A DNA stretch of 44,595 nt from Microcaldota archaeon. GTDB lineage: Archaea; Micrarchaeota; Micrarchaeia; Micrarchaeales; CABMGC01. Both the position numbers and the translations under genes were made by a program. The stretch lies in NCBI GenBank assembly GCA_028867435.1, contig JAGWGI010000009.1, positions 1 to 44,595 on the forward strand. Direction: 5' to 3'. The notes beneath the pieces were generated by a model that did no database searches, was not told where the DNA came from, and was given only the letters and a program-made list of their open reading frames with translations. Of the stretch, positions 1,968-38,769 are shown in pieces. Position 1 is the first letter of the stretch; each line of letters opens with the position of its first letter.

Positions 1968-2918
1968 ATGGCAAAGGAGGTACGAGTAAAGGAAGTCGAG
2001 GACCTGCCTGGGATCGGGCCCACATCCGCGCAGAAACTCAGGGACGCTGGGTATGACACTCTTGACAAGGTAGCGGCAGCTCTGCCCTCGGAACTCTCTG
2101 ACGCCACAGGACTCTCAACAGAGGTTGCAAAGAAGGCAATAGAGGCGGCAAAGGCCGCAACCACTCTGGTATTTGAGACTGGCACAGAGGCATATGCCAA
2201 GCACAAGGAGCTAGGCAAGATCACCACCGGCTCAAAGGGCTTTGACGAGCTGCTCGGCGGAGGAGCCGAAGCAAAGGCGATAACCGAGGCATACGGCAGG
2301 TTCGCTGCAGGCAAGAGCCAGGTTGGGTTCCAGCTTTCTGTCAATGTCCAACTTCCGGTATCAAAAGGCGGGATGGAGGGCGGTGTGCTCTTCATAGATA
2401 CCGAAGGGACGTTCAGCCCGGACAGGATAGAGAGCATAGCAAAGGCGGCAGGCCTTGATCCAAAGGCAGTGCTAGAGAACATCTTCCTTGTGAGGGCGCT
2501 AAACACCGAACAGCAGGTCTTGGCAGTGGAAAGGGCCGACAAACTAATACGCGAGAAGAACATCAAGCTGATAGTTGTGGATTCGATAACCTCTCTTTTC
2601 AGGGCCGAGTTCCTCGGGAGGGGTACGCTAAACGAGAGGCAGCAGAAGCTCAATGCCCACATCCACAGGCTGCAGATGCTAGCCGATACGCACAGCATTG
2701 CTGTATACATAACAAATCAGGTAATGGACAACCCCGGCATACTCTTCGGCGATCCAACCACCCCGATAGGTGGGAACATACTTGCCCACGCTGCCAAGAC
2801 AAGGCTGTATATGAGAAAGGGAAAAGAGGAGAAGAGGATCGTGAGGCTCGTGGATTCGCCAAGCCAGCCAGAAGGGGAGTGCGTTATCAAGATCACAACA
2901 GAAGGAATCAAGGACTAG
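1968..2918 (+). CDS. radA: DNA repair and recombination protein RadA
   Basis: N-terminal HhH (EDLPGIGPTSAQKL), Walker A-like GRFAAGKSQ, GGVLFIDTEGTF, LIVVDSITSLFR, TNQV. Confidence 0.97.
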   Translation: MAKEVRVKEVEDLPGIGPTSAQKLRDAGYDTLDKVAAALPSELSDATGLSTEVAKKAIEAAKAATTLVFETGTEAYAKHKELGKITTGSKGFDELLGGGAEAKAITEAYGRFAAGKSQVGFQLSVNVQLPVSKGGMEGGVLFIDTEGTFSPDRIESIAKAAGLDPKAVLENIFLVRALNTEQQVLAVERADKLIREKNIKLIVVDSITSLFRAEFLGRGTLNERQQKLNAHIHRLQMLADTHSIAVYITNQVMDNPGILFGDPTTPIGGNILAHAAKTRLYMRKGKEEKRIVRLVDSPSQPEGECVIKITTEGIKD

Positions 2919-2925
2919 TGTTTTA

Positions 2926-3690
2926 ATGCTCATTCTTACAGGCACAGGAGTAAACAACAGGGACATCTCTCAATTAGCTATAGAACAAATCAAGCAGGCA
3001 GACGAGCTGCTGCTTGACCTGTACACAAATCACATCTCCAAAGAGGAGCTCTCCAACCTAAGCATGCTGTGCGCAAAAGAGCCAAAGCTGCTGAGCCGCT
3101 CTGACCTTGAGGAGAACGCAGGGCAGATAGTGGAAAGGGCAAAGAGGGCGAAGATCGCAATACTGGTTTCAGGAGACCCGCTAATAGCAACAACGCACCA
3201 CACGATACTCGACCTTGCTGCCAAGGCGCATGTAGAGTATATGGTTTGCCACTCCTCCTCAATCTTCTCTGCGGCCATCGGGGAGAGCGGGCTTGACATC
3301 TACAAGTTCGGCCCTACCACCACAATAACCTTCTGGAGCGAGAAGTACAGGCCTGTGTCGTTCATAGACGCTATAAAAAAGAACATAGACAACGCTCAGC
3401 ACACCCTTGCGCTCTTCGACTATCACTACGAGGAGCAGCGCAGGATGCGTCTTGGTGAGGCGATAGTGCTGCTTCATGCTGCAGACGAGCAAAGGGGGCA
3501 TGGGTTGATGGACAAGGAGAGAATGTTACTTGTGATGGGCGATATCGGCAAGCAAACACAGCAGATAAAGTACGTTCAGTTAGGGGCAGTGGATAAGGAA
3601 GTTTTAAAAGGGTTTGAGGGCAAGACCCTGTGCATGATAGTTCCTGGGAAGCTTAGCTTCGCCGAGGAGGATGCACTCAAGAGGTTCTGA
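2926..3690 (+). CDS. dph5: Diphthine synthase
   Basis: SAM methyltransferase with VSGDPLIATTH and HSSSIFSAAIGESGLDIYKFG motifs. Confidence 0.93.
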   Translation: MLILTGTGVNNRDISQLAIEQIKQADELLLDLYTNHISKEELSNLSMLCAKEPKLLSRSDLEENAGQIVERAKRAKIAILVSGDPLIATTHHTILDLAAKAHVEYMVCHSSSIFSAAIGESGLDIYKFGPTTTITFWSEKYRPVSFIDAIKKNIDNAQHTLALFDYHYEEQRRMRLGEAIVLLHAADEQRGHGLMDKERMLLVMGDIGKQTQQIKYVQLGAVDKEVLKGFEGKTLCMIVPGKLSFAEEDALKRF

Positions 3691-8026: not shown

Positions 8027-8101
8027 GCTCCTATCGTCTAGTCCGGTCAAGGACGCGGGGCTTTCAACCCCGCAACACGGGTTCAAATCCCGTTGGGAGC
8101 A
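8027..8101 (+). tRNA. tRNA-Glu (UUC)
   Basis: Cloverleaf: acceptor GCTCCTA/TGGGAGC, anticodon loop CTTTCAA (TTC), T arm CGGGTTCAAATCCCG; discriminator A at 8101. Confidence 0.95.
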
Positions 8102-8111
8102 TGCTGAACAA
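8098..8111. repeat. Left target-site duplication of casposon (14 bp, AGCATGCTGAACAA)
   Basis: Identical 14-mer at 16617-16630 immediately outside the opposite TIR; first 4 nt are the end of tRNA-Glu. Confidence 0.95.
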
Positions 8112-8160
8112 GGGGTTATATATAACTCGATGAAATGTCCCCCTTCTCTAACATAGTTTT
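8112..8160 (+). repeat. Casposon left terminal inverted repeat
   Basis: GGGGTTATATATAACTCGATGAAATGTCCCCCTTCTCTAACATAGTTTT; 41/49 identical to reverse complement of 16568-16616. Confidence 0.95.
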
Positions 8161-8219
8161 GGCACGTAGAGGGCTATGCTAATCCTTACTTTAGGCTCTC
8201 TTCCTTATGCCTTGCTTAG

Positions 8220-8390
8220 TTATTCTCCCCTCTCTAACTTTTCTACAGTTGCTTTTATGGTTTTATTGATAAGTTTCTCTAATGTAGCCACTTTAAGACT
8301 CACTGAATTGAAGTGATGCTTATAGTCTTCCCAGTCAGCAAACACTTCATCCAGAACCTTTTTTCTTATCTCAGGCATGGGTTTTGTCAT
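8220..8390 (-). CDS. Small protein (56 aa) coupled to polB
   Basis: MTKPMPEIRKKVLDEVFADWEDYKHHFNSVSLKVATLEKLINKTIKATVEKLERGE*; ATG overlaps the polB stop (ATGA). Below the ORF-track length cutoff. Confidence 0.65.
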   Translation of the reverse strand: MTKPMPEIRKKVLDEVFADWEDYKHHFNSVSLKVATLEKLINKTIKATVEKLERGE

Positions 8391-11038
8391 ATTATCACGT
8401 TCATTAATTTCTTCATTGTTTTCTTCTTTAACTCTATCTTCTTTTCTTCATTTATCCTTTTCTTCAGCCTAAATAAATGCCTTTTTGATAACCCGATGCG
8501 TTTAGCGTCTTTTGTTGTCATGTTCTTGATAGCATCTGTTATCTTCTGCTCTGTTTTGTTATCGTAAACAACATAATCGCTATCTGAAACACCGATAACT
8601 TCGCTTTCTTCAATGTTGTTCGACTCTTTGCCAATGTGTTCTATATCATTGATGACGATTTGTTTCCGTCTCAACTCTCCAATCGCACCATCGTATTTGT
8701 TATCATTATGATTAGCATAAGCAAATAAGAACTCTGATAGAGGTTTCCAGTAGAACTTTGTGTTATCTGTGTATTCTTTGCCTGTTTTGTAATCAATAAA
8801 TCGACTAAACGGTACAATATCCGTATTTTTGGTGTAAGCAAGTAGAGGAATTATCGGCTCTTTGGTCGATGAATCTAGTCTATACCCTATACCAACGATA
8901 ACAAAGTTGAACGGCTTTAGGCGTTTATCCCTGTTCGTGCGCCTAAAGCGTTGCATGATAAAAGGCGATGTTAAGGCGAGCTTGCCCATCACGAACATGT
9001 TTGAATATTTACTCCCGATAGCCTCTTTCGATAACGTACCATAATGATAACTCAGAACATCGTGCCAAATTTGTTTTATTTCATCTTCGCTTATGCCTAT
9101 AAGACCGCCTAGACCATGAGAAGAGTGCTTGAGAATGTCAATTTTGTTATCCACCATGCGATACAAACAGTATCTTTTGGCAGATATGCCATAAAACCAA
9201 ACATCGTGTAATGGCTTACCGCTCTCGTCGTTTTCCACCTTGAACATCTCGACAGACGTAGAGTAGGGGTTTAGAGGTTTGAAGAACGCTTGAATCTTGT
9301 CCACTAACTCTGGGTTAACAAAGAGTGCGTCGGTGTCGCAATAGGCAAAGTAGCCCTTGTTTTCCTTTACGTACGCCTCCACCATAGCAAGTATCAACCT
9401 TGATCCTGATGTTAGCATGGTCGCAAGTATAGGGTTAAACGCCCTGCCAAACTGCTCTTTCTTGCTTGCCTCACATGTAAACGGACTTATTCCGTATATT
9501 TCTGCATTTACTCTCTCGTTTTGTGTGTTTACTTCAACGAAAATGCCGTAAGATGTAGCATTTGCGATTATTTTGGCGATAAAGTCCTCTTTCTTGAGAC
9601 CTTTGTTATCCGTGTCTTGCTTCAATTTCTGTTTTACCTCAAGGCGATGCTCAATTAAATAGCGGATAAAGTCATCTTTCTCTGGCTCTATGTTCTTTCC
9701 GAATAGGTTTATTGTATTGAGGTTGCTCTGTTTTCCTTTAGGAACGAATCTGAAAGCCTTGATTATCTTTGGTGCCTTGCCAGTAAGCAGTTTTGACGCT
9801 ATGATGTCAGGATAGGTATACCAGAGTGCCTTGCCTTTTGCGTAGTTCAGCCCTATGTTGTACGCTATCTTGCCGTTGTATTTGGCTCTGAGTGGCAAGA
9901 TGTCATTATCCACGTCTACTAGAGCGATTCCATTGAGCGTTTTCCATAAATCTTTGTTTGTAAGATCGTCTAGCTGTATGTTTTCCAACAATTCAGCGAA
10001 TTTGTTATCCTCTATAACGTCTATGTTATCAGCGATAACGTAATCCCATAAACCGAGTAACACGAATTGCGATGGATACATGGATGTAAAGTCAATATAC
10101 GATACCTTTACTGGTGTTTTGCGTATATGCACCTCTGTTCTACCTCCGTAATAAGTGGTCATTATCCATCCTAGCATTTGTTTAGGGAAGGTTGGATTCA
10201 ATTCTAGGAACGGTTTTATGCCCATCTCCTTGAAGTATTCCTTACCGATAGACGCTGGCGATAGCAGTTTGTTCAACAGCGTAGGCAGTTTATACCTTGA
10301 AAACTCGCTTTTCAATGCGAGAAACAAGTCATAAGACGCAAAAACATCGTTTATGTTGTACCGTATGTATTCTGACGTTATCTTGCCATGCTCCTCAGTC
10401 TTCAGTTTCTTATGCCCAACGTTAAATAGTTCACACGCACTTTCAAGGGAATGGTTCTCATTGGTTAGAGCAAAGGATAACGTCCTGAGATCAACGAATG
10501 TGCCTCGATACCTATTAACTCTTTTATAGTTTTTGAAGTTTTTAGAGTAAGGCGTAGAGAAGTTTATCAATGAACGCTTAGAATCGATGTGTTTTATGAT
10601 GATTCTCGGCATATATACGTTATCAAACAGCTTGAAAGAGAAGGCGTTGTTATCCTTTCTGGATATACTGTAGTCTATGGCTATACGTGATATATCAAAA
10701 GGCAGGTTAAAACCGACGCAGATAGCCCTTCTTTTATAGACGTAATCGATAAACATGTCTAAAAACTGGCTTTTTGTTACCAGTTTTATGTGTTTTTTAT
10801 TGGCGTAATCTGATAACGTTTTGACGTCGCTGTTATCCAAATTGTTATCATAAAACAATCCGAACTCATCCAGTTTATCGTTTTGCCATATGCCGTAAGA
10901 ACCAAATTTTAAGTTCTGGTACTGGTCTATTGTTGTTTCTGTATCAAAAACTAACACCAGATTCTCATTATAATGGATAACCTTATCGTTCTGTGCATGT
11001 AGTTTGTTATCAATATAACATCGTAAAGCAATGTTCAT
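8387..11038 (-). CDS. polB: Family B DNA polymerase of casposon, with C-terminal HTH-like extension
   Basis: Exo motifs FDTETT, GFNLPFDIS, YNINDVFASYD; Pol motifs DFTSMYPSQF, KIIANATSYGI, YFAYCDTDALFV. Confidence 0.95.
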   Translation of the reverse strand: MNIALRCYIDNKLHAQNDKVIHYNENLVLVFDTETTIDQYQNLKFGSYGIWQNDKLDEFGLFYDNNLDNSDVKTLSDYANKKHIKLVTKSQFLDMFIDYVYKRRAICVGFNLPFDISRIAIDYSISRKDNNAFSFKLFDNVYMPRIIIKHIDSKRSLINFSTPYSKNFKNYKRVNRYRGTFVDLRTLSFALTNENHSLESACELFNVGHKKLKTEEHGKITSEYIRYNINDVFASYDLFLALKSEFSRYKLPTLLNKLLSPASIGKEYFKEMGIKPFLELNPTFPKQMLGWIMTTYYGGRTEVHIRKTPVKVSYIDFTSMYPSQFVLLGLWDYVIADNIDVIEDNKFAELLENIQLDDLTNKDLWKTLNGIALVDVDNDILPLRAKYNGKIAYNIGLNYAKGKALWYTYPDIIASKLLTGKAPKIIKAFRFVPKGKQSNLNTINLFGKNIEPEKDDFIRYLIEHRLEVKQKLKQDTDNKGLKKEDFIAKIIANATSYGIFVEVNTQNERVNAEIYGISPFTCEASKKEQFGRAFNPILATMLTSGSRLILAMVEAYVKENKGYFAYCDTDALFVNPELVDKIQAFFKPLNPYSTSVEMFKVENDESGKPLHDVWFYGISAKRYCLYRMVDNKIDILKHSSHGLGGLIGISEDEIKQIWHDVLSYHYGTLSKEAIGSKYSNMFVMGKLALTSPFIMQRFRRTNRDKRLKPFNFVIVGIGYRLDSSTKEPIIPLLAYTKNTDIVPFSRFIDYKTGKEYTDNTKFYWKPLSEFLFAYANHNDNKYDGAIGELRRKQIVINDIEHIGKESNNIEESEVIGVSDSDYVVYDNKTEQKITDAIKNMTTKDAKRIGLSKRHLFRLKKRINEEKKIELKKKTMKKLMNVII

Positions 11039-11325
11039 TTACTCACCAGTGATTTACCTATGCCATAACAGAGGGAATCAGCCAAACAGTAGTACGTGTA
11101 ATCGCTTGTTTTGACGTATTTGAGCAGAAGTAGTTCTCTGATCCCTTGCATTATGAAGCCGTTTTGCAGTGTTTCTGTGCTGTTTTGATTAGTCCAGCGT
11201 ATATCCCATGTGTTTTGGTGTTTTGTTATCTCGTTGTGGCATGGTACACACAAAGAAACAGTAATTTCCGAGTTGTTTCTGCCTGCTACATGGTGTAATT
11301 CTAGGCGTCTTCGCATACAAAACAC
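11035..11325 (-). CDS. HNH endonuclease, C-terminal part (frame-disrupted)
   Basis: RRRLELHHVAGRNNSEITVSLCVPCHNEITKHQ carries the HH...CxxCH HNH core; the upstream CxxC lies in the overlapping ORF. Confidence 0.8.
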   Translation of the reverse strand: MFCMRRRLELHHVAGRNNSEITVSLCVPCHNEITKHQNTWDIRWTNQNSTETLQNGFIMQGIRELLLLKYVKTSDYTYYCLADSLCYGIGKSLVSK

Positions 11326-11516
11326 TTGATGTCCTTCTGTTTAGGGTTTTTTTTGAAGAGATATTGAACGTATTTTACGACTTTGTTGACTTTCTTGTTA
11401 TCCAGATTGTTCCTTTCTGCCGAATCGAAGAAATAACCCAGAATCTCAGATAACAATTTCTGCTTTTTGTCATTGTTATCCGTTATCTTGTCGTTGCTGT
11501 TATCCATGATAATCAC
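11301..11516 (-). CDS. HNH endonuclease, N-terminal part (frame-disrupted)
   Basis: Ends ...QKDIKCFVCEDA*; CFVC is the expected first half of the HNH zinc site and lies directly before RRRLELHH in the -1 frame. Confidence 0.65.
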   Translation of the reverse strand: MIIMDNSNDKITDNNDKKQKLLSEILGYFFDSAERNNLDNKKVNKVVKYVQYLFKKNPKQKDIKCFVCEDA

Positions 11517-11854
11517 TGTTTTTTGCCGAGCAGTGCCAGAATGATAACAACTGCTATAGCTCCTATACCACCAATAATGGCAAGTCCATCACCATTACCA
11601 CCCCTACTCCGTTCTATCTCTCTGTGACCATGATGCTCTGGTTCTTGCTGTTCATGCTCCTCTTGTGGTGGTTCTGGTGCTTCATGCACGAACGGTTCAT
11701 GCTCCACTTCTGCTGGTTCTAGCTCTGTTTGTTGAACCTCTTCATGCGTGGCTACTGGTTGTCTATATTCCAAACCTTTATGGAATCGGTGCTTATGCAC
11801 CCTATAAGACCCTTCGCTACTAAGACTGCGCTCGCAATATGGACATTGTATCAT
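11513..11854 (-). CDS. C2H2 zinc-finger protein with Glu/Pro/His-rich linker and C-terminal TM helix
   Basis: CPYCERSLSSEGSYRVHKHRFH at N-terminus; GLAIIGGIGAIAVVIILALLGKKQ at C-terminus; 4-nt overlaps with both neighbours. Confidence 0.75.
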   Translation of the reverse strand: MIQCPYCERSLSSEGSYRVHKHRFHKGLEYRQPVATHEEVQQTELEPAEVEHEPFVHEAPEPPQEEHEQQEPEHHGHREIERSRGGNGDGLAIIGGIGAIAVVIILALLGKKQ

Positions 11855-12318
11855 ACATTCACCTGATAAATATCGTAAAACTCTGGCTCTTCTCGCCTAG
11901 CGTTGATCTCACGTATGGCTGAGGGATTTGTTTCGAGGATATGCCACTTGCCAGAGCTGTCCTTTACCCTCTTGCCCTCAAACTCGGCTAGAACATCAGT
12001 ATTGCCAGTATTGAGGTATTCCTTTACTGCACTGTGATACTTGCCTATAAGCGTCGCATAGCGAGAATCGGTTATCTCTACAACGGTTTCTTTGCCGTTC
12101 TCGTTGATTGCCATTATGCGTGAGATTTGGTCGGTTTTCTTGGGCTTCCAGCGACCATTTACCTTCTCGAAGCCCTGAGTAGCTCTAAGGACTTTTTTAA
12201 CTGATACGCCACGCTCTCTGCTGAGCTTTGATAGCGACTGCCCAGACCTTCTTGCATGACTCAGAACCTCTAAAGCTCGCTCCCTTGCCAACTGCTCTCT
12301 GGACTGAGCGCATTCCAC
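11851..12318 (-). CDS. HTH-domain protein (GTG start), probable C-terminal part of a frame-split gene
   Basis: ALEVLSHARRSGQSLSKLSRERGVSVKKVLRATQ HTH-like; followed by a conserved-looking RYATLIGKYHSAVKEYLNTGNTDVLAEFEGKRV region. Confidence 0.65.
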   Translation of the reverse strand: MECAQSREQLARERALEVLSHARRSGQSLSKLSRERGVSVKKVLRATQGFEKVNGRWKPKKTDQISRIMAINENGKETVVEITDSRYATLIGKYHSAVKEYLNTGNTDVLAEFEGKRVKDSSGKWHILETNPSAIREINARREEPEFYDIYQVNV

Positions 12319-12566
12319 GACCTAGCGGACACGGGCTTAGGCGTGCCTCTGCTGAGCCTTCTTGCCTCTGCTTTGGCATGACCTCTAAGTTGGTCTAGGC
12401 TCGCCCTGGGATAGAACGAATGAAGCCTAGCGATACGCTTGATGTAGCCAGTATGCCTATCCTGAGTGGACAGCCAGTCTCCAAAGTTTCTGTATCTTTT
12501 CGAGAACCTCATCGAACCATCGCAGTTTGCGCATAGGCGCATGTTTACCTCACTACTATCAGGCAT
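12270..12566 (-). CDS. Small Cys-containing protein, probable N-terminal part of the split HTH gene
   Basis: From internal Met: MPDSSEVNMRLCANCDGSMRFSKRYRNFGDWL...YIKRIARLHSFYPRASLDQLRGHAKAE...; overlaps the HTH ORF by 49 nt. Confidence 0.6.
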   Translation of the reverse strand: MPDSSEVNMRLCANCDGSMRFSKRYRNFGDWLSTQDRHTGYIKRIARLHSFYPRASLDQLRGHAKAEARRLSRGTPKPVSARSWNALSPESSWQGSEL

Positions 12567-12579
12567 TAGTGTATATTTA

Positions 12580-12623
12580 TATACTTTCGTAAGTATACTA
12601 TATGATAACGAGCTATCGTATAG
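12580..12623. promoter_or_regulatory. Two adjacent palindromes in divergent casposon promoter
   Basis: TATACTT-TCGT-AAGTATA (12580-12597) then CTATATGATA-ACGAGC-TATCGTATAG (12598-12623, 9/10 arm match) between divergent starts near 12566 and 12632. Confidence 0.55.
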
Positions 12624-12631
12624 TGAGCTAT

Positions 12632-13768
12632 ATGAACAATAAAGAGAAGCCATCGTGGCAGGAAGGCGTCAAAAATCGTCATAAAGAAGGAATAATTGCA
12701 TTATTACAAGAGCAACCAAACAAGGCAATGCGATTTGTAGACCTTTTAGCCAAAAAGGATAGGACAGGAATTAAATCACCTAAAGGACTTACTGAGGTAC
12801 TACAGCGACTAATAAATGAAAGACTTGTAGAAAACACGCACATAGATATTGAGATTGAAAGAGGCAAACCCAAATTAGGGATGCATGGAGAAGTTTTAGA
12901 GAGAAATCTTGTTAAAAAGAAAGTAGAAGCGTATGGACTTACTACAGAGGGTCGAAAATATCAAAGTTGGTGGTTAATCCATGAGCTTTTTGATCTGCAA
13001 GATAAGAATTCAAGTTACGTTCATAGTCTTAGCTACGGGTACGCCTCTTTTGGACTATCTGAGGATATCGTGATGGGTAGAGCTACTGAGGGTAAATTAC
13101 CTAATTTTGATATACCTGCCATCCCAGAAATAGAGGACTTTATAATGCTTGAAACTTTTAGGAAAATAAGGGAGAATAAGATAAAACCTCAACTTAGCGA
13201 TTATAAACTGCTTTTATCTTTTGAATTTGATTTTGCACAATTAACAGCTCGGGTTATAGAACTACAAGCGTTCATAGAGGACATTAATACAGGGCAGGAT
13301 GTGTTCACAGATAAACGTTTGAGATTATTGGGACATAACGATAATATATGGTTGTTCAATTTTCTTGTCAATTACTCTGTATTTTTTGGAGATGAAGCGT
13401 ACAGAAAGAATCTTACAGCTTTTCTAAAGAATCTCTCGAAAGATAAGAAATTCTATGAGCTAACGCAAGTAAACCCTGAACTATTTACAAGATTTATGGG
13501 GGGTTTCAAACAAGGTAAAGACCCGATAAATGACAAAGTACTTTTCAAGAAGCTAATAGTCCCTGTAGAAAAGGGGGTAGGGTTCTATAACCACTTTAGC
13601 AGATATATAGAAGGAGCAAGGATAATCAAATTTGGAGATGAAAAATTTAATAAAAAATTAGATGAGTTTACTAACAACTTATCAAAAAAGATAAGCCATA
13701 TGTCTATGGAATGGGCTGAGAGGGATAGAAAGGAATTTGAATCAAAACAAAAAGGTGAACAAAAATGA
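12632..13768 (+). CDS. Casposon protein with winged-helix-like N-terminus (378 aa)
   Basis: Start at internal MNNKEKPSW; HKEGIIALLQEQPNKAMRFVDLLAKK...LTEVLQRLINERLVE...YGLTTEGRKY resembles wHTH; stop overlaps cas1 start by 4 nt. Confidence 0.7.
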   Translation: MNNKEKPSWQEGVKNRHKEGIIALLQEQPNKAMRFVDLLAKKDRTGIKSPKGLTEVLQRLINERLVENTHIDIEIERGKPKLGMHGEVLERNLVKKKVEAYGLTTEGRKYQSWWLIHELFDLQDKNSSYVHSLSYGYASFGLSEDIVMGRATEGKLPNFDIPAIPEIEDFIMLETFRKIRENKIKPQLSDYKLLLSFEFDFAQLTARVIELQAFIEDINTGQDVFTDKRLRLLGHNDNIWLFNFLVNYSVFFGDEAYRKNLTAFLKNLSKDKKFYELTQVNPELFTRFMGGFKQGKDPINDKVLFKKLIVPVEKGVGFYNHFSRYIEGARIIKFGDEKFNKKLDEFTNNLSKKISHMSMEWAERDRKEFESKQKGEQK

Positions 13769-14976
13769 ATCCCTTACTAATCTCTGGATTTGGAACGAAC
13801 ATAAGCGTAGACAAGCGTAGGCTAATCATTCAGAACAAGCTAGAGAACCAGCGATACGAATACTATCCGCACCAGATAAAGCATGATTCAGTAATAGTAG
13901 ATGGGCATAGTGGTAGCATAAGCTTTGAGGCTATGAGATGGTTGGTAAAGCACAACATACCTATAGCAATGCTCAACTGGAACGGCAATCTGCTAAGCGT
14001 TACGTTGCCGAAAGAAACAGTATCAAGCAAACTAAGACTAAAACAGTATAAGATATATCAAGATGGGAAAAGAAGGTACAGTATCGCTTATCCTCTAGTC
14101 AAAGAGAAAGTCAACCAGTCGATAAATCTGCTAAATGAGCTATCGAAGTATTACAAGGAGATTGATGTTAGTACGATAAGAACTGAATCAGAAAGAGAGG
14201 GCATATTCAAGCTGAAGATTACTTACGATTACCATAACCTTATGATGTATGAGGGTAGAATCGCAGATATCTACTGGTCTCAAATTCTAAATGCGTTCAA
14301 TAACTTATGCCCAGAGTTCAAGTTCGTTAGCAGAAACAACACTCTGAACTCACATAACCGCAACGCCTCAGATGAGATAAACGCCTTGCTGAACTATGGC
14401 TATGCGGTACTGGAATCTGAGGTAAGGAAAGACCTCAATTCCATCGGTCTTGATCCCTCGATAAGCTTCTTGCATGAGCTATCGAACAGCAGAGCCTCGC
14501 TTGTGTACGACATTCAGGAGCTTTATAGGTGGCTGGTAGACCTATCGGTAATACAGCTACTAGAGGAAAAGAGGCTACAGAAGGCTGACTTTATCGTAAC
14601 AGAGAACTACAACATAAGGCTTAGAGAAACTACGGCAAAGGCATTGATAGAGAAGATAAAGCTGAACTTCAATGCCAGAGCGTTATACAACGGCAAATAC
14701 TACTGCTACCAGAATATCCTATACGAAAACGTAAGGTTGCTGGCTAACTACATAATAGGCAAGTCTGGCAAGCTCCAATTCAACATACCAGAGTTCAAGA
14801 TAAAGCGAGAGGATAACACAGGGATTCGTAATAAAGTGCTAAACCTAACACCAGAAGATCGCAAGACGTTAGGCATAAATAAGTCAACTCTGTGGTATAT
14901 GCAGAAGCACATAAAAGAAGGAAGGAAAATTAAGGTTTACGGCAAGGTTATGGGTAAATTAAATGGCGAAAACTAA
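13765..14976 (+). CDS. cas1: Cas1 family integrase (casposase) with C-terminal HTH
   Basis: Cas1 signatures: DEINALLNYGYAVLESEVRKDLNSIGLDPSISFLHELSNSRASLVYDIQELYRWLVD; C-terminal LTPEDRKTLGINKSTLWYMQKHIKEGRKIKVYGKVMGKL. Confidence 0.96.
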   Translation: MNPLLISGFGTNISVDKRRLIIQNKLENQRYEYYPHQIKHDSVIVDGHSGSISFEAMRWLVKHNIPIAMLNWNGNLLSVTLPKETVSSKLRLKQYKIYQDGKRRYSIAYPLVKEKVNQSINLLNELSKYYKEIDVSTIRTESEREGIFKLKITYDYHNLMMYEGRIADIYWSQILNAFNNLCPEFKFVSRNNTLNSHNRNASDEINALLNYGYAVLESEVRKDLNSIGLDPSISFLHELSNSRASLVYDIQELYRWLVDLSVIQLLEEKRLQKADFIVTENYNIRLRETTAKALIEKIKLNFNARALYNGKYYCYQNILYENVRLLANYIIGKSGKLQFNIPEFKIKREDNTGIRNKVLNLTPEDRKTLGINKSTLWYMQKHIKEGRKIKVYGKVMGKLNGEN

Positions 14977-16486
14977 ATCAACGCCCAAAATAGGCATAAA
15001 AACATTAGGAATTGGCGTAGTAATAGGCATTGTTGTGATAATTGGAGTTTTATTATATTTAAGCTCGCATAATTCTTTAGGAACTATAAGCAATCCATAT
15101 AATAGTTCATTTGGTTATCAAGGAGCGGGTTACTACCTTTCCCACACACATAAATTTTACGCCATAAACTTGAGCAGCTTCAATCAGAACCCTTATAGTA
15201 CAAATAGCTCTTCAGCAACACAGAACGCAACAGGGTCTATAGTTCCAACAACATCAATTTATTATACAACTATACCTTATACAACAACCATGCCACAAGT
15301 AAACTATGGATGTTCTCCATTACCGTGCAGTTCTATAAAGAATGGCAACTTTACATTCGTGTTTACGCTATTGAACGGGTCAGTAGAACAGTGGCATTTT
15401 CCAATTACTACGTACAATCATTATCTATCAACCCCAAGAATAGACCCGATTATACGCTTAAATGACACCATAACTGGTAAAACAATTTATACATGGGATT
15501 ATCGTTCTTCGATAACACCAAGTTTCTTTGCGAACATTACGCCAGAACTCACTGATGGAAAGACGGCAGGGCAGTTTGTAGCCGAAGTTCAAAATTTAAA
15601 CAGTCAGTTAGTAAACTACAGTCTTATTTTCGCAAACACCTCGGTTTATCCAGCACAATTATTAGCGCAAGGCCAAGGCGATTGTAAGGATAAAGGGGTA
15701 TTAATGGCAAGCATATTAGAAGCTGGGAATCTACAAGCCAATTACGGTATGAAAATAGAGTTTGTATATGTAGATGCTGGTAACCTAACTGCTCCACATA
15801 CTGCTGATCATTTACTGTTGGATATAACTTACGCAAATGGAACAAAAGCATTTTTAGACACAACTCATGTACTTGCAACAAGCCCTTACTTTAATGGTAC
15901 TGTAGATGGATGGTATTATAATCTAACTTGTACGATGTCTGGATGTCAGACAGTACCATTATGCACAGGTTTATACTGCGATGCAGTAGGCTATGTTTCT
16001 GGTGGCAATAGTAGCTTTAATACATGTCAATCAGGTTACATAGTCGGTAGTGATAATTTATGTCATTTTCAATCTGGTGGAGTTGATTATTACTATGCGG
16101 GTGGATATAATTATACGACATTGCCAACTACAACAATTCCTTATACAACTACTATCTACCCAAGTGGTTCGGGTTCTTGTAGCAGCTTTGAGTTAACTGA
16201 GAGTTTGCCAACCACCGAAACTACTGGCACATGTACGTGGTCTGGCGGCTATCTAACCGTATCTGACAACGAAGGTCAATTTACTTACGCTATTGCAGAT
16301 ATATACAATAGTACTTCATCGTATAATGCTTATTATCTCAATAAAACAGTATCAGACAGCCCCTCTTGCCTTACCGACACGAAATCTTACTATTTCCCAG
16401 AAGGAAGCTATACAGTCTACATAAAGACAGGTGGCTATGGTACTTCTTGTTCAAACAACTATGCGTATCTAACTTTAAGTAGTTGA
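14963..16486 (+). CDS. Membrane-anchored/secreted protein with transglutaminase-like domain and Thr-rich linkers
   Basis: N-terminal TM (IGVVIGIVVIIGVLLYL), Thr-rich TTIPYTTT linkers, and GQGDCKDKGVLMASIL...ADHLLLDI...AFLDTTH fitting a Cys-His-Asp transglutaminase-like triad. Confidence 0.75.
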   Translation: MAKTKSTPKIGIKTLGIGVVIGIVVIIGVLLYLSSHNSLGTISNPYNSSFGYQGAGYYLSHTHKFYAINLSSFNQNPYSTNSSSATQNATGSIVPTTSIYYTTIPYTTTMPQVNYGCSPLPCSSIKNGNFTFVFTLLNGSVEQWHFPITTYNHYLSTPRIDPIIRLNDTITGKTIYTWDYRSSITPSFFANITPELTDGKTAGQFVAEVQNLNSQLVNYSLIFANTSVYPAQLLAQGQGDCKDKGVLMASILEAGNLQANYGMKIEFVYVDAGNLTAPHTADHLLLDITYANGTKAFLDTTHVLATSPYFNGTVDGWYYNLTCTMSGCQTVPLCTGLYCDAVGYVSGGNSSFNTCQSGYIVGSDNLCHFQSGGVDYYYAGGYNYTTLPTTTIPYTTTIYPSGSGSCSSFELTESLPTTETTGTCTWSGGYLTVSDNEGQFTYAIADIYNSTSSYNAYYLNKTVSDSPSCLTDTKSYYFPEGSYTVYIKTGGYGTSCSNNYAYLTLSS

Positions 16487-16567
16487 CACATTCAAGGTCA
16501 AACAAACAGCATTAATACAACCCTCTATTTTCTCAGCCACGTTACTAGCCTCTGTCATCTCCACACT

Positions 16568-16616
16568 AAAACTATGTTAGAGAAGGGGGACATTTGTGGC
16601 TTCTATATATAACCCC
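16568..16616 (-). repeat. Casposon right terminal inverted repeat
   Basis: AAAACTATGTTAGAGAAGGGGGACATTTGTGGCTTCTATATATAACCCC, reverse complement of left TIR except the divergent core. Confidence 0.95.
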
Positions 16617-16630
16617 AGCATGCTGAACAA
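16617..16630. repeat. Right target-site duplication of casposon
   Basis: AGCATGCTGAACAA, identical to 8098-8111. Confidence 0.95.
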
Positions 16631-37375: not shown

Positions 37376-38170
37376 ATGTCAGGAGGCATATTTCTTAAAA
37401 CTGATACATTAGAGATACTCAATACCGATGTCCTAACCACTACTGAAATTAAGAACAAGAGTGTAGATCTAATTGTAACCTCACCACCATATAATCTAGA
37501 CATAAAGTACAATTCTAATAGCGACAAACTTACCTACGAGGAATACTTGGAATTCAGTAAGAAATGGTTAGGTAATTGTTTCGAATGGCTTAAGGATGAC
37601 GGTAGACTATGCTTAAACGTGCCTTTAGACAAGAATAAGGACGGTCAGCAGAGTGTTGGTGCTGACATAACAACAATAGCTAAGCATGTAGGTTTCAAAT
37701 ATCACTCAACTATAATCTGGAACGAGGGAAACATCTCCCGAAGAACCGCTTGGGGTTCTTTCGCAAGCGCCTCCGCACCTTACGTTATAGCTCCAGTCGA
37801 GCTTATCCTCATTTTATATAAAAATGAATGGAAAAAGACGAGTGGAAGCAAAAAGAACGATATAACTCCAGAGGAATTTATGGAGTGGACTAGTGGTATG
37901 TGGAAATTTCAGGGTGAAAGTAAGAAAAAGATAGGGCATCCAGCACCATTTCCTTTAGAACTTCCAAGACGGTGCATAAAACTTTTCAGTTTTGTTGGGG
38001 ACGTTATCCTCGACCCATTTATGGGAAGCGGTTCTACACTCATAGCTGCCTATAAAAATAATAGGCACGCCATAGGCATCGACATAGACACAGAGTATTG
38101 TAAATTAGCCAAAAAAAGATTAGCTGAAGAAGCACACATCTTTGAAAAAGAATTAGTTACTAATATCTAG
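37376..38170 (+). CDS. DNA methyltransferase of type II R-M system (beta class, probably N4-cytosine)
   Basis: [12 protein letters not shown] near N-terminus and [26 protein letters not shown] near C-terminus. Confidence 0.88.
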
Positions 38171-38769
38171 TGATACTAATGGTAAATGAAGACTATGCAA
38201 ACCAAGCAGAATTAATCATGGAGTATTTCAAAAAGCACCCAAGAAGAAATATAAAGCATCCAGAGGTTGTAGACTGGGCTGTTAATACTTACAAAAAGAG
38301 GACTAAAAAAGTATTTAGAGATCCGGATAGAGCCATAAGGAAATTGGCGCAAGAAGGTTACCTGATAAAAATAAGTAAAGGCGTCTATAAGTACGAACCA
38401 GGATTTATCGTTAGGAGAGAACTTAATGATTTTACTCAAGCACAAAAGGAAGCCATAATAGAGCGAGACGATTATCGTTGTGTTATATGCGGTCGTGGCG
38501 TAAAGGACGGTATTGAACTGCAAGTCGATCATATAAAACCTAAAGATTTAGGCGGCACAAACTCTATAGAAAACGGGCAAACTCTCTGCGCTCAACATAA
38601 TTTTCAGAAGAAAAATTATAAGCAGACAGAGTCCGGCAAAAGATATTTTATCCGACTCTACGAAGCAGCTAAAAAGAATAACCATAAGCAATTACAAGCT
38701 TTCTGCGCTGAGATACTTGAAGTATATGAAAAGAGGGGCATTAACGGTCATATCATCTGGAAGAGATAA
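38170..38769 (+). CDS. HNH restriction endonuclease with N-terminal winged-helix-like domain
   Basis: RDDYRCVICGRGVKDGIELQVDHIKPKDLGGTNSIENGQTLCAQHN; directly downstream of the methyltransferase. Confidence 0.85.
   Translation: MILMVNEDYANQAELIMEYFKKHPRRNIKHPEVVDWAVNTYKKRTKKVFRDPDRAIRKLAQEGYLIKISKGVYKYEPGFIVRRELNDFTQAQKEAIIERDDYRCVICGRGVKDGIELQVDHIKPKDLGGTNSIENGQTLCAQHNFQKKNYKQTESGKRYFIRLYEAAKKNNHKQLQAFCAEILEVYEKRGINGHIIWKR

Follow-up and report, generated by a model that had tools for sequence, protein, structure and literature searches.

A casposon at the 3' end of a tRNA-Glu gene in Micrarchaeota, and related elements across its order

Introduction

CRISPR adaptation is proposed to derive from casposons. 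To our knowledge, only a small number have been described, and M. mazei is the sole case with demonstrated movement in vivo. A first-pass annotation of the DNA analysed here, a stretch of 44,595 nucleotides (the window), called a complete casposon in what it inferred to be an ARMAN-like, DPANN host, and the locus raises two questions: whether the element is a genuine casposon, and how it would spread between the cells of an ultrasmall, host-dependent archaeon. The locus as a whole is best explained, and we hold this with high confidence, by an autonomous family 2 casposon that was inserted at the 3' end of a tRNA gene by its casposase. Casposons as a class are known, and what this locus and its relatives add is a new host phylum, non-autonomous derivatives and scars. 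A search of a set of open-access papers (subscription papers were outside the search) yielded no casposon from Micrarchaeota or any other DPANN lineage and no paper that joins casposons with miniature inverted-repeat elements; non-autonomous copies and scars were not found in the casposon papers among them.

The element, its target site and its host

The casposon spans positions 8112-16616 of the window (8,505 bp) and is bracketed by two exactly matching copies of the 14-bp target site duplication (TSD) AGCATGCTGAACAA, at 8098-8111 and 16617-16630 on the forward strand. Its 49-bp terminal inverted repeats (TIRs), at 8112-8160 on the forward and 16568-16616 on the reverse strand, are identical at 41 of 49 positions: 13 outer identical bases are followed by eight consecutive mismatches in one block and then by 28 inner bases that are 100% complementary. 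The TIRs of relatives repeat this pattern of a fixed end, a variable 8-nt block and a fixed inner block. The boundaries proposed by the first-pass annotation, including the identical sequence around the repeats, were confirmed to the base, whereas its description of the TIRs as near-perfect is somewhat generous, because 8 of 49 positions differ. The target gene, an intact tRNA-Glu(TTC) predicted by ARAGORN at 8027-8101 on the forward strand, ends at 8101, and the duplication therefore consists of the last 4 nt of the tRNA and the following 10 nt. The same composition is found in M. mazei, where the 14-bp TSD is overlapped by 4 bp of tRNA-Leu (PMC6977970). The GC content is 39.5% within the casposon versus 48.1% outside, and the host genome contains one casposon copy and one Cas1 gene. 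This arrangement is not due to chance, since the same layout of tRNA end and TIR recurs at 99 sites and is absent from the controls described below; the chromosomal element is a whole, intact-looking casposon positioned precisely where a tRNA gene ends.

The host belongs to the Micrarchaeota, as had been suspected, and so do the hosts of all close relatives except for one 4.9-kb contig (L008) labelled Nanoarchaeota. That contig carries a casposon remnant with a TIR and a tRNA-Glu-like end, and whether it reflects a true host or misbinning is not settled. The DCD-tRNA-Glu is present in three genomes of the same genus with 77-80% DNA identity, where homology stops at the tRNA end, or within 2 nt of it, and no TIR follows. 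A search for an empty tRNA-Glu site, as the annotation had suggested, is thereby only partly fulfilled: these sites confirm the left boundary alone because the right flank is not conserved there, and no right-flank orthologue that would give an exact empty site was found in the genus. For the casposon of a relative, G189, both flanks can be aligned with the same site in G191, whose right flank is identical to that of G189 over the 126 bases available, which supports the two boundaries there.

The casposase

The 403-aa Cas1 is encoded at 13765-14976 on the forward strand (Pfam Cas_Cas1, E 4.8e-59), and its open reading frame, like that of the 883-aa polymerase, is uninterrupted, as had been noted previously. 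The catalytic residues E163, H237 and E252 are invariant. Among PDB entries, the closest solved structure is 6OPM, the casposase of M. mazei, which aligns over the full length (E 1.8e-78) and covers a C-terminal extension at residues 330-400; the best CRISPR Cas1 in the same search reaches E 1e-26. The helix-turn-helix (HTH) nature of this C-terminal domain is taken from the literature and not from the alignment. In a tree that included 21 other micrarchaeal Cas1 proteins, the window Cas1, five micrarchaeal relatives and 6OPM, the only non-micrarchaeal casposase sampled, form one clade with support of 100/100, and micrarchaeal CRISPR Cas1 proteins fall away from it. Clustering within a CRISPR-associated clade, which the annotation had named as a refutation, did not occur. 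A role as a CRISPR adaptation Cas1 is rejected by this tree, and among the eight listed ORFs of the element Pfam detected no Cas2, serine or tyrosine recombinase or DDE transposase. No close relatives of the casposon were found in viral contigs, and phage and plasmid records gave only distant matches, mostly to CRISPR-type Cas1. The casposon shares with the Cas1-Cas2 adaptation module the integrase fold, integration beside a guide sequence and duplication of the target; it differs in the lack of Cas2 and of an array, in the insertion of whole elements and in its separate Cas1 clade.

The polymerase and the other genes

The genes are arranged in two blocks that diverge from about 12.3-12.6 kb, with the polymerase, an HNH-like protein, a 71-aa ORF, a zinc-finger protein and a 155-aa protein pointing leftward, and a 388-aa protein, Cas1 and a 507-aa cargo protein pointing rightward. 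The polymerase, at 8387-11038 on the reverse strand, is assigned to family B (PolB) by its motifs and a fold match. It contains Exo I (DTET), Exo II (FNLPFD) and Exo III (Y-x3-D) as well as motif A (DFTSMYP), motif B (K-x2-AN-x3-YG) and motif C (YCDTD), and the exonuclease and polymerase motifs are kept in five aligned homologues. A motif C of the YCDTD type has been described in the casposon polymerase of A. boonei (PMC7544198). Sequence searches of Pfam, PHROG and PDB, including a PDB search with a PolB profile, gave no match, and the AlphaFold model is of low confidence (pLDDT 54), yet it matches the fold of archaeal B-family polymerases with a match probability of 1.00. The fold matches listed for this low-confidence model are archaeal and eukaryotic B-family polymerases primed by RNA or DNA. 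A protein-primed polymerase of the family 1 type was also considered and is not supported, as the matches are RNA/DNA-primed enzymes and no protein-primed PolB profile matched. The C-terminal segment of PolB is similar to that of Cas1, residues 355-399 of Cas1 matching the PolB C-terminus in G037 and G041. At two other loci (L010 9881-10207 and L053 9163-9740), C-terminal pieces of PolB and Cas1 are fused in one orientation, perhaps through recombination between these similar segments.

The remaining genes of the leftward block lie on the reverse strand. A small HNH-like nuclease of 96 aa (11035-11325) rests on a weak PHROG match (HNH, E 0.003) without a Pfam HNH match, and is 48-90% identical in five other elements. 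It is followed by a conserved 71-aa ORF (11301-11516) found in the other complete elements, a 113-aa protein with a C2H2 zinc finger and a hydrophobic C-terminus (11513-11854; Pfam zf-C2H2, E 0.02, below the cut-off) that is kept in most other elements, and a 155-aa protein (11851-12318) that is HTH-like by inspection and 55-89% identical in all other complete elements. On the forward strand, the 388-aa protein (12602-13768) lies upstream of cas1 and overlaps it; a winged HTH is inferred via its homologue in L003 (HTH_5/MarR, E 0.002-0.003, below the cut-off). Its AlphaFold model was of poor confidence, and the fold match obtained with it is meaningless. The 155-aa and 388-aa proteins are two candidates for the pair of HTH proteins expected in family 2, one of them with HEAT repeats; HTH scores in the homologue are weak, and no HEAT repeats were detected by Pfam among the element ORFs.

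The 507-aa cargo protein (14963-16486, forward strand) has no Pfam or PDB match. It has an N-terminal hydrophobic segment and is probably secreted, and its Cys/His/Asp pattern is reminiscent of a transglutaminase-like domain, which remains an inference. The C-terminal part of this surface-type protein is 75% identical over 77 aa to L196 15883-16650, which lies in a non-autonomous casposon from a different genus; L202 15572-16921 shares its middle part. Outside the casposon, at 37376-38769, an N6/N4 DNA methylase gene is followed by one for an HNH protein, likely a restriction-modification pair.

The gene content fits casposon family 2, represented by AciBoo-C1 of Aciduliprofundum boonei (PMC4046053, PMC9939771). 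Cas1 and PolB resemble each other in their C-terminal segments, which are HTH domains in family 2; TIRs and a 14-bp TSD at tRNA 3' ends are present, as are candidates, weakly supported by profile scores, for the small HNH and HTH-type proteins, and the polymerase resembles RNA-primed archaeal PolB and not protein-primed enzymes. The window element differs in its micrarchaeal host, its 49-bp TIR with a variable 8-nt block and its other cargo.

Related elements in the order

A search for a tRNA 3' end followed by 10 nt and GGGGTTATATA (pattern: T-loop, 23 nt, GGGGTTATATA) returned 99 sites in 71 of 301 Micrarchaeota genomes, and all 71 belong to the order of the window (164 genomes). The reversed pattern and the 137 other Micrarchaeota genomes gave no site. 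When gaps of 10-38 were allowed, all matches fell at 22-24 (99 at 23 and nine at 22 or 24). The target tRNAs are mostly Glu and Pro, with Ile, Arg, Gln, Ser, Lys and Gly also represented, in contrast to M. mazei, in which mainly tRNA-Leu is targeted.

Complete autonomous elements with exact TSDs and a common core gene set are observed in the window and at five loci in relatives: L003 2395-12702 (tRNA-Glu), where a second casposon end is stacked behind the TSD, L048 5364-15141 (tRNA-Glu), L049 2339-15423 (an intron-containing tRNA), L050 8684-19436 (tRNA-Pro) and L190 (10,738 bp, tRNA-Glu). Tandem insertion at one target is also known from M. mazei. Many of the tRNA-adjacent sites carry partial elements, and several derivatives have lost the Cas1-PolB core and kept cargo ORFs. 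Non-autonomous copies with TSDs, some of them perfect, include L005 (7,348 bp) and L006 (5,304 bp), both with the core deleted between PolB and Cas1, L196 (4,151 bp), in which the 60 bp compared at each end are identical, L209 (2,848 bp, TSD 13/14) and the smallest, L172, an 899-bp element with one DUF5680 gene.

Among the core-deleted casposons, L005 encodes a DndB-like protein at 11150-13453 (PF14072, E 2.5e-12) and L052 a DUF5655 protein at 2359-3276 with a weak NucS-like match, both possibly defence-related. In L052 an inverted, not direct, target copy lies between two casposon ends (3345-3380). Casposon ends are also found beside incomplete 3' tRNA copies with the same trailer (L012 3782-3850 and 11870-11967, L057 1978-2046, and L204); in L012 and L057 the tRNA fragment is preceded by shared sequence, as if the attachment site of another element had been the target.

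At some sites beside tRNAs (G183, G191, G180/G187), the tips of both TIRs are joined directly to each other (GGGGTTATATATAACCCC or near) with a target copy on either side, and such a fused-tip scar also lies beyond the intact element in G189. The loci are L184:182-213, L192:175-220, L181:168-210 and, on the reverse strand, about 10910-10960 of L190. At a few of these sites the scar measures 18 bp and is flanked by two target copies. Where both target copies can be recognised, they match at 12-13 of 14 positions; in G191 the left one has diverged. These scars are apparently the remains of lost elements and could have arisen by excision or by deletion between the TATATATA tracts of the two tips, which the data do not separate. 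The casposon model of 2014 predicted an excision footprint, but in vivo excision in M. mazei yields a clean single target without one (PMC10359463), and the micrarchaeal sites with fused ends between two target copies differ from M. mazei in this respect.

Spread and activity

The synonymous divergence (dS, estimated by NG86) of the window Cas1 is 0.66 relative to G041, of another family, and 0.57 relative to G189, of another genus, versus 1.8-3.3 for the housekeeping genes RadA and L3 within the genus. Only the ordering of these values is used, because NG86 estimates above about 1 are rough. Since the Cas1 value lies below the housekeeping values within the genus, the element moves horizontally among Micrarchaeota, and dN/dS of 0.08-0.11 in Cas1 and PolB shows that selection acts on the protein function of the transferred elements. 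The question of how such an element spreads between cells is thereby partly answered, by transfer between micrarchaeal families, whereas the route between cells remains inferred; a scan of species representatives, not a sensitive method, revealed no casposon match in Thermoplasmatota, the likely hosts. Recent insertion and possible activity, suggested in the first-pass annotation, are plausible in view of the exact TSD, the intact ORFs and dN/dS of about 0.1, but activity is inferred from these features and has not been shown.

Alternative explanations

That a CRISPR Cas1 was captured by an unrelated integrated virus or plasmid can hardly be entertained: Cas1 belongs to a family shared with CRISPR, and CRISPR-type Cas1 is present in some other Micrarchaeota, but the grouping with casposases in the tree, as far as casposases are sampled there, refutes a capture, and the full-length match to 6OPM including the C-terminal domain, the TIRs and 14-bp TSD, and element ORFs without an integrase or Cas2 speak against it as well. 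Alternatively, the tRNA-adjacent GGGGTTATATA might be a feature that accompanies tRNA genes in this order, such as a terminator or processing signal, and not a casposon end. Indeed, only the proximal end is seen for most of the 99 sites, with a distal partner and TSD for 11 elements, and the comparison genomes include many drafts whose contigs frequently end inside casposons. However, those eleven complete elements carry 14-bp duplications, many sites extend into the 28-bp TIR block or have Cas1 or PolB fragments downstream, and the sequence occurs at few tRNA genes per genome and is missing at orthologous tRNAs of relatives, which makes a tRNA signal very improbable.

More weight, although we still consider it unlikely, is retained by the view that the casposon is genuine but already immobile, a fossil before decay that is kept for its cargo gene. 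Its TIRs are non-identical, most sites in the order hold only remnants or non-autonomous copies, and several derivatives without the Cas1-PolB core retain cargo such as DndB-like or NUDIX genes. Yet the core ORFs are all open with intact catalytic residues, dN/dS is about 0.1 and the TSD is exact, and close relatives occupy different tRNA genes and occur in different families.

Mechanism and implications

For the preferred reading, an autonomous family 2 casposon, the following steps are envisaged. The Cas1-type casposase would join the termini of the element (...AACCCC-3') to a staggered cut made at the tRNA gene's 3' end, which duplicates the final 4 nt of the tRNA together with the 10 nt beyond and leaves the tRNA intact; this biochemical activity is inferred. 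The T-arm/acceptor region of the tRNA would serve as the guide sequence, as it is read by the A. boonei casposase (PMC9939771). The element is probably copied by its own B-family polymerase with host priming, a replication mode that is likewise an inference and has been proposed for family 2 (PMC4046053). Members spread horizontally between Micrarchaeota and reuse the same tRNA ends, sometimes in tandem. Movement in vivo has been documented in M. mazei (PMC10359463). The elements also give rise to small scars and to non-autonomous copies with internal deletions, which are presumed to be moved in trans.

Extending this, we tentatively hypothesize, as a possibility that may well not hold, that the Micrarchaeales harbour circulating active casposons, that autonomous ones move cargo-only elements in trans, that reuse of tRNA ends builds TSD-separated stacks resembling a primitive CRISPR array, and that loss leaves the fused-ends scar. 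If so, this scar would be the footprint of the original casposon model that was not seen in M. mazei. Casposon ends occur in about 45% of the sampled genomes of one archaeal order, as full, stripped-down, tandem and scarred copies, and such a population would allow comparative tests of how targets are chosen, whether elements are mobilised in trans, what footprints excision leaves and how array-like stacks form. Judged from the divergence data, archaea that are ultrasmall and probably depend on hosts exchange mobile DNA across family boundaries.
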